In this document: one piece after another, positions 4,084-4,869 of the stretch
How the letters are laid out: every line of letters starts with the position of its first letter
How positions within the stretch are numbered: position 1 is the first letter of the stretch
Assembly (NCBI GenBank): GCA_001782475.1
Contig: MFOT01000022.1
Coordinates: 1 to 39,919 of the forward strand
Length of the DNA stretch: 39,919 nt
Source of the DNA: Candidatus Levybacteria bacterium RIFCSPLOWO2_01_FULL_38_21
GTDB taxonomy: Bacteria > Patescibacteriota > Microgenomatia > Levybacterales > UBA12049
Direction: 5' to 3'
Program-made: the position numbers and the translations under genes
The notes under the pieces: model-generated
What the model was told of the DNA's origin: nothing
Seen by the model: the letters and a program-made list of their open reading frames with translations, nothing else
The model's database searches: none

Positions 4084-4869
4084 ATGATTTGTATCAATAA
4101 TCTTAAAATAGTCCTGTTTTTCTTACTAATTGCTGTTATTGCTCAGGGGCCTGCCAAGGTTTATGCGCAGTCTGATGATGTATCAACTGGAATAGCTCTT
4201 CCGATAAATGTTGAGGATAAAAATGTGAAAAATGGAGATATAATAACCGTAACCTCCAAGGGATATAGATTAAGCATATACGCTTACGACCCATCTCTTT
4301 ATGGGGTGATTACGACTAATCCTGCGATTTATTTAAGAGAAAAGAACAGTAGCACGGTCTTAGTAATATCGTTTGGGAAGGCGCTCGTAAGAGTATCTAC
4401 AATAAACGGGGCAATTAAAAAAAATAATTTTATAACAAGTTCCAAAATCTTGGGAGTTGGGCAAAAAGCCGACGTAAATGGATTTATTCTGGGGATGGCT
4501 CTTGAGAACTATTCCAATTCCAACCCAAACGCAATCGGTAAAATTTTAGTATCTATTGATCCTCATTATAACGCAACCTTTATCGGAGTCAGGACAAATC
4601 TTATAGAAAATATAAAAGTAGTTGCCGGAGCTCCGCTTTTGTCCCCTCTTACAACGCTTCGATATCTTCTTGCCGCAATTATAACAATCATCTCGTTTAT
4701 ACTCGGATTTATATACTTTGGACGAATAGCAAGAACCGGGGTTGAAGCATTGGGAAGAAATCCTCTCGCCTCCCGCATAATACAACTTGGAATAGTCTTA
4801 AATGTAGTCCTGACCGCAGGAATCATTCTTATAGGAGTTGGTATAGCTTATTTAATTTTAATTTTGTAG
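4084..4869 (+). CDS. F-type ATPase c-like subunit fused to an extracellular beta domain; ion-binding acid missing
   Basis: 261 residues in the position normally held by atpE, 10 nt before the b subunit. Residues 1-28 are a signal peptide (cleavage after KVYA). Residues 50-165 resemble the beta domain that ends many long phage and CPR fibre proteins (the peptidase G2/IMC type: [57 protein letters not shown]). Residues 193-261 form two membrane helices joined by a basic loop [15 protein letters not shown] (217-231), matching the RNP/RQP polar loop with which c subunits contact gamma and epsilon. The c-subunit carboxylate expected in the second helix, near 244-245, is Thr-Ala; neither helix has an Asp or Glu. 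Topology fits a c hairpin: domain outside, loop in the cytoplasm. Ion transport by this subunit is unlikely; it may be a rotor anchor. Confidence 0.72.

Follow-up and report, generated by a model that had tools for sequence, protein, structure and literature searches.

The window analyzed here (the whole 39,919-nucleotide stretch of DNA, from a Levybacteria genome) carries an F-type ATPase operon whose first gene encodes a c-type rotor subunit fused behind a predicted signal peptide and a phage-fibre-type beta domain, and whose membrane hairpin lacks the carboxylate that binds the ion in ordinary c subunits. We regard it as evenly poised whether this operon specifies an ion-uncoupled, ATP-consuming second F-type rotary ATPase that transmits torque or force to fibre-type domains arranged as a ring outside the cell. 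The wider proposal, that such operons form a new class of ATP-driven rotary surface motors, widespread in CPR, in which F1 turns an ion-dead c-ring and drives or assembles fibres, is put forward more tentatively.

Organization of the operon and of its first gene

The genes follow one another in the order rotor-type (4084), b-like (4880), delta (5574), alpha (6083), gamma (7554), beta (8419) and epsilon (9800). They are listed here with the parts of the 261-residue rotor-type protein and the fibre gene at the start of the window:

2–2770 (−): divergent fibre gene with a MerR-type HTH (PF00376, E 2.9e-14), one TM and a repetitive body
4084–4866 (+): rotor-type subunit with predicted extracellular domain, 261 aa, with full-length homologues in relatives
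4084–4167 (+): predicted signal peptide, residues 1–28 (...KVYA/QS), read from the sequence
4192–4572 (+): fibre/peptidase-G2/phage-cement-type beta domain, residues 37–163, predicted extracellular (AlphaFold2, Foldseek, profiles)
4645–4866 (+): c-subunit-type two-helix hairpin, residues 188–261 (Foldseek, hhalign, NCBIfam)
4753–4764 (+): polar loop GRNP, residues 224–227, equivalent to the loop by which c subunits dock on gamma/epsilon
4801–4803 (+): Asn240, nearly invariant in TM2 (82/85 Asn, 3/85 His)
4816–4818 (+): Ala245, at the site of the ion-binding Glu of canonical c, carboxylate absent
4880–5593 (+): b-like peripheral stalk subunit, N-terminal TM and long helix (weak ATP-synt_B; NCBIfam subunit B, E 0.004)
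5574–6086 (+): delta/OSCP subunit (PF00213, E 3.3e-8)
6083–7564 (+): alpha subunit, arginine finger kept (SVTRVG; PF00006, E 1.2e-64)
7554–8429 (+): gamma subunit (PF00231, E 1.6e-24)
8419–9822 (+): beta subunit, Walker A GGSGVGKT and GERTREG kept (PF00006, E 5.3e-60)
9800–10084 (+): epsilon subunit, 94 aa, beta-sandwich domain only (PF02823)

The layout of the first gene product (signal peptide, fibre/G2-type beta domain, C-terminal c-type hairpin) agrees with the sequence-only reading, which had proposed a fibre/G2-type domain on a c-like rotor subunit of an ATPase operon; fold, profiles and conservation all bear this out. The hydrophobic start is common to the 26 aligned rotor homologues, often with A-Q at its end, and the GRNP loop is invariant in their alignment (A1).

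Elsewhere in the window, a near-identical 22-bp element occurs at 26265–26286 and 37656–37677 (−), in frame inside argS and leuS, where it translates as (S)AKASAG(K/R)Q; the genome has no further copy of its 13-bp core.

The beta domain has a phage fibre-type fold

The domain was modeled by AlphaFold2 from 26 sequences with a mean pLDDT of 85, the values in the blocks over residues 40–160 being mostly 92–97. A Foldseek comparison of the modeled domain with a viral library (BFVD) returned preneck-appendage and fibre proteins of phages (best E 4e-12; rmsd about 2–4 overall and about 2–2.5 for the best matches; preneck appendage predictions at E about 1e-10), and the comparison with PDB returned phage cement proteins (8hdt_G, E 4.6e-5) and phi29 gp12 (3gqh, E 1.3e-3; 3gqh and 3suc both at E about 1e-3). 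Examined for membership in the Peptidase G2/IMC family, the domain was found to share the fold of the phi29 gp12 C-terminal domain. By sequence, the Pfam matches to phage cement/DUF2190-like families were weak, and a phmmer search of the window protein against PDB gave no useful match.

Homologous domains are present in two long surface-type frames of the same genome, one of 2002 aa on contig C9 (46% identity, E=1.5e-13) and the other of 1385 aa on contig C27 (E=5.1e-8), and a profile built from the 26 rotor copies reaches fibre copies at E values down to about 1e-26. With 30.0 bits, the C27 fibre copy (paralogue L003) alone clears the Pfam threshold of 25 for Peptidase_G2 (PF11962), which the rotor proteins themselves do not reach (one of 26 members matched, at E 0.021). 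Because the paralogue, the profile, the AlphaFold2 model and the Foldseek matches all point the same way, the G2/fibre-type assignment made in the sequence-only reading was right as to fold; the profile search that it had suggested and the structural comparison that could have refuted it both returned fibre-type matches. Its limits for the domain, residues 50–165, were somewhat too narrow: the blocks on which it relied are there (residues 73–84, 99–118 and 152–160), within a domain that extends over residues 37–163. The autocleavage residues, also proposed as a check, gave a divided answer, as a D-x-A-E motif is common among the fibre copies (12 of 18 non-rotor profile matches, two of the 18 being probably fragments of rotor genes) and missing from all 26 rotor copies. 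As far as this putatively catalytic motif can serve as a guide, autocleavage of the rotor protein looks unlikely.

The hairpin is of the c-subunit type and has lost the ion site

Foldseek comparison of the hairpin with solved c subunits gave TM-scores of 0.84–0.87 (by target) at an rmsd of 1.3–1.5. In a profile-profile comparison (hhalign) with canonical c subunits of the same class, the probability was 96% with a score of 47.6 and E 2.6e-9, against at most 13.9 in 20 column shuffles and 7.2 for the reversed profile. NCBIfam subunit C models match 10 of the 26 rotor members (best E 3.4e-6), and a weak LtrA match to the hairpin in the Pfam scan of the window protein was dismissed as a hydrophobic chance match. 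The 11-residue loop of the window hairpin corresponds to the canonical c loop AMEAIGRNPEA, canonical c of the class having the same loop (AIGRNPE). With respect to the polar R-Q/N-P loop of c subunits, GRNP is present in nearly all rotor members, a figure to be read with the fact that GRNP was partly built into the pattern used to scan 84,980 species genomes, although not into the searches of relatives and of the phylum.

In canonical c subunits (21 of 21 sequences) a Glu follows the G of GRNP at a distance of 21 residues. At that site nearly all of the 85 distinct rotor hairpins have Ile, Val, Leu, Ala, Gly or Phe, and none has a carboxylate; in one hairpin TM2 contains an Asp at another site. 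A bias due to selection by the GRNP pattern was considered and rejected, as members found without it gave the same result: the hairpin-c comparison repeated with members not picked by the loop pattern scored 45, and 19 further members across the phylum, found without the pattern, also have no carboxylate at the ion site, which makes it missing from all of about 100 distinct hairpins. These profile, fold and alignment comparisons show the predicted hairpin to be a homologue of the c subunit in which the ion-site carboxylate has been lost.

An F1 with catalytic motifs and without subunit a

The F1 part has kept the Walker A, the catalytic Glu and the arginine finger. Among cassettes (as we call the operons of this type), the arginine finger motif is present in 72 of 72 alpha subunits and GER in 67 of 69 beta subunits; since these catalytic motifs are kept, ATP hydrolysis would be expected. 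The epsilon subunit is short in most cassettes, its C-terminal helices missing, and the position of the b-like gene is conserved.

Subunit a is absent from every cassette examined, the window operon included, and a profile built from class members found none in the cassette flanks. The window's own genome, with 787,844 bases on 28 contigs and a completeness of 98%, also has a canonical F-type operon with subunits a and c on contig C14. Ten other cassette-bearing genomes, 91–99% complete (G041, G056, G058, G154, G186, G138, G194, G176, G100 and G114), contain neither a subunit a nor a second set of F-type alpha and beta subunits; two of them, G154 and G186, each consist of one contig and are 99% complete. 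An ordinary ATP synthase was rejected on account of the missing carboxylate, the lack of subunit a and the ten genomes that have only the cassette form. None of these features, nor the long fibre neighbours with the same domain described below, had been part of the sequence-only reading; they are new here.

Conservation and phylogenetic spread

The full fusion is encoded in 24 of 59 relatives (the own genome included) and, counted as matches spanning domain and hairpin, in 20 of 143 genomes of the phylum. The scan of species genomes located it at 80 loci, under the names Levy-, Shapiro-, Roizman-, Ames-, Woese-, Collier- and Daviesbacteria, WWE3, Sungbacteria, other Parcubacteria and one labelled Saccharibacteria. 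The nearest named relatives there are Candidatus Levybacteria and further Microgenomates. As a rule the cassettes are arranged rotor-b-delta-alpha-gamma-beta-epsilon, the fusion nearly always standing ahead of the genes from b to epsilon; the survey for the same fusion ahead of atpF in other genomes, as originally suggested, found it conserved. The cassette beta subunits (n=80) form one clade (support 0.947) apart from the canonical betas, of which the tree held only four. Because the fusion recurs in many independent assemblies, single-contig genomes among them, we rejected a misjoin or an artefact of a single assembly.

Departures from the common arrangement were also observed. Five rotor subunits from Sungbacteria/Parcubacteria (L136, L140, L143, L147 and L149), of 434–580 aa, start with an HTH (HTH_17-like), a linker and an extra TM, followed by the fibre domain and the c hairpin. 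Other cassettes have no b and delta, and their rotor gene directly precedes alpha (L115, L134, L137, L138, L145, L150 and L152); some Woese- and Collierbacteria cassettes are of this kind. Rotor genes that stand alone are L062/L163, L063/L157, L153, L158, L169 and L175; the genomes of L062 and L063 also have an ATPase cassette. In that of L062 (G032:C48), an a-less ATPase operon on another contig (L181, G032:C27) has no rotor gene of its own. One cassette (L197, G182:C2) is flanked by two divergent rotor genes, and a long protein with the same domain (L202) is encoded about 13 kb from it.

Association with fibre genes

The fibre gene at 2–2770 (−) encodes its HTH at the N-terminus, and its reading frame continues past the contig end. 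The 2002-aa frame on C9 (G000:C9:2702–8711, −) is likewise open at a contig end and may be the missing C-terminal part of this gene. In another genome (G002) the adjacent gene is complete, with 3220 aa and the same domain near its C-terminus.

Fibre genes were called by the HTH profile, the domain profile or an S/T/G/N/A-rich composition. Among relatives, such a gene is one of the two nearest upstream genes in 14 of 22 cassettes versus 0 of 18 canonical atp operons of cassette-bearing genomes, which served as background; across the phylum, it is so placed in 9 of 13 cassettes (Fisher p = 2.2e-5 for the relatives alone and 1.4e-6 for both cassette sets). With an earlier background, the genes downstream of epsilon, the difference was weak (26/84 versus 16/99). 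In the Collierbacteria locus L150 the fibre and rotor genes lie on the same strand, with an overlap of 4 bp. This gene-neighbourhood pattern supports a functional link between cassette and fibre genes.

In the window, a gene for a Fic-domain/HTH protein (3040–3975, +) separates the fibre gene from the rotor gene. It occupies the same place in close relatives, and in L100 it overlaps the rotor start by 4 bp.

Proposed mechanism and alternatives

From the signal peptide, the positive loop and the c topology we infer that the beta domain is located outside the cell. With the signal peptide placing it there, the Arg-rich GRNP loop would be cytoplasmic, as in canonical c, and would dock gamma and epsilon. 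An alpha3beta3-gamma-epsilon assembly, usually with delta and b and never with a, would hydrolyse ATP, and the c subunit, fused behind signal peptide and phage-fibre (peptidase-G2/cement type) domain and without its ion-binding carboxylate, would form a membrane ring; this ring, with the beta domains that crown it outside, would be turned or strained while no ions are transported. Its most likely load would be the surface fibre encoded next door. Ring formation, rotation and fibre coupling are what we infer; as the rotor has lost its ion site and would bear a fibre-type domain outside, the complex looks less like an energy generator than like an ATP-driven motor or a generator of force acting on surface structures.

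The main rival keeps the same complex and does away with rotation: a membrane scaffold, in which ATP hydrolysis by F1 powers the assembly, folding, export or gating of the fibre encoded nearby, with the G2-type domains serving the fibre ends as a template or a chaperone collar. We consider such a non-rotating fibre assembly device somewhat unlikely, as most lineages have kept gamma, epsilon, delta, b and the GRNP loop, a costly outfit for a static scaffold. It is favored by the adjoining fibre genes, in which the same domain can occur, and by the role of G2/IMC domains in phages, where they are fibre maturation domains. Some lineage-specific features speak for it as well as against the rotary motor: the N-terminal cytoplasmic HTH and TM of the Sungbacteria-type (Parcubacteria) rotors would hinder free rotation, and the Woese- and Collierbacteria cassettes that lack b and delta would have to generate torque without a recognised stator. 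Even with b present the rotary motor has no subunit a to hold the stator against the ring, and some rotor genes stand alone.

That the complex still pumps ions or makes ATP, working through the subunit a of the canonical operon (which the window's own genome does possess) or through a new pathway around the well conserved Asn240, appears improbable, given that no hairpin has a carboxylate at the ion site and ten cassette genomes have no subunit a to borrow. Still more improbable is an active G2/IMC autoprotease that would cut itself off and leave an ordinary c subunit; the fold match to phi29 gp12 and the Peptidase_G2 match of a paralogue are in its favor, but the putative catalytic motif is missing in every rotor copy and the hairpin left after cleavage would be as ion-dead as before. 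As for an assembly artefact or a chance resemblance, nothing was found to recommend either; the fusion recurs in scores of independently assembled genomes, some of them single contigs, and the profile score is 45–48 against the 13.9 reached by shuffling, so that we attach practically no weight to them.

Significance and relation to known systems

The combination of domains had been noted as unfamiliar for an ATPase operon, and it appears to be unreported in the literature searched: our search on ATP synthases of CPR, Microgenomates and Levybacteria found no description of the fusion or of the cassette. To our knowledge, nearly every known rotary ATPase is coupled to ions. If the rotary surface motor is real, it would be a second, apparently independent recruitment of F1 to the cell surface, after the gliding and immunoglobulin-cleavage ATPases of mycoplasmas, and would open a testable way of learning how CPR cells make or move the long surface fibres encoded in their genomes, in a bacterial group that is among the largest and the least understood. 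Since ten genomes have only the cassette form, atpA and atpD in a CPR genome should not be taken as a sign of ATP synthesis.

Like the cassette, the F1Fo ATP synthase has genes for b, delta, alpha, gamma, beta and epsilon after c, but it also has subunit a, which the cassette lacks. The rotor protein shares with F1Fo subunit c (PF00137/TIGR01260) the two-helix hairpin and the GRNP-type polar loop, being homologous by profile and fold; it differs by the absence of the ion-binding carboxylate and by the addition of a signal peptide and a 120-residue beta domain, predicted to be extracellular. This domain has the same fold as the Peptidase_G2/IMC domain of phi29 gp12 preneck appendages and phage fibres, although it stands N-terminal to a membrane hairpin rather than C-terminal on a fibre and has lost the D-x-A-E of the fibre copies. 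It is of the same barrel type as the phage cement/decoration proteins (Pam3, BB1, TW1; DUF2190-like), which sit on a capsid and not in a membrane-anchored cellular protein.

A further parallel is with the F1-like X0 ATPases of mycoplasmas, the Type 2 gliding G1-ATPase and the Type 3 MIB-MIP ATPase (PMC3369863, PMC12994834, PMC11864180). Both these and the cassette are second F-type-like ATPases, those of mycoplasmas being dedicated to surface functions, and a mycoplasma protein with a signal peptide, a large domain and two C-terminal TM helices has the same layout as the rotor protein, by which alone the two were compared (PMC3369863). In the mycoplasma clusters there is a 12-TM protein, and b, delta and c cannot be recognised, whereas in the cassettes b, delta and the c-type hairpin are recognisable and no 12-TM neighbour was seen. 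The cassette alpha and beta subunits score below the cut-offs of the MSC/MMOB models, and we place the cassette among the F-type ATPases, as a variant, and outside the mycoplasma family.
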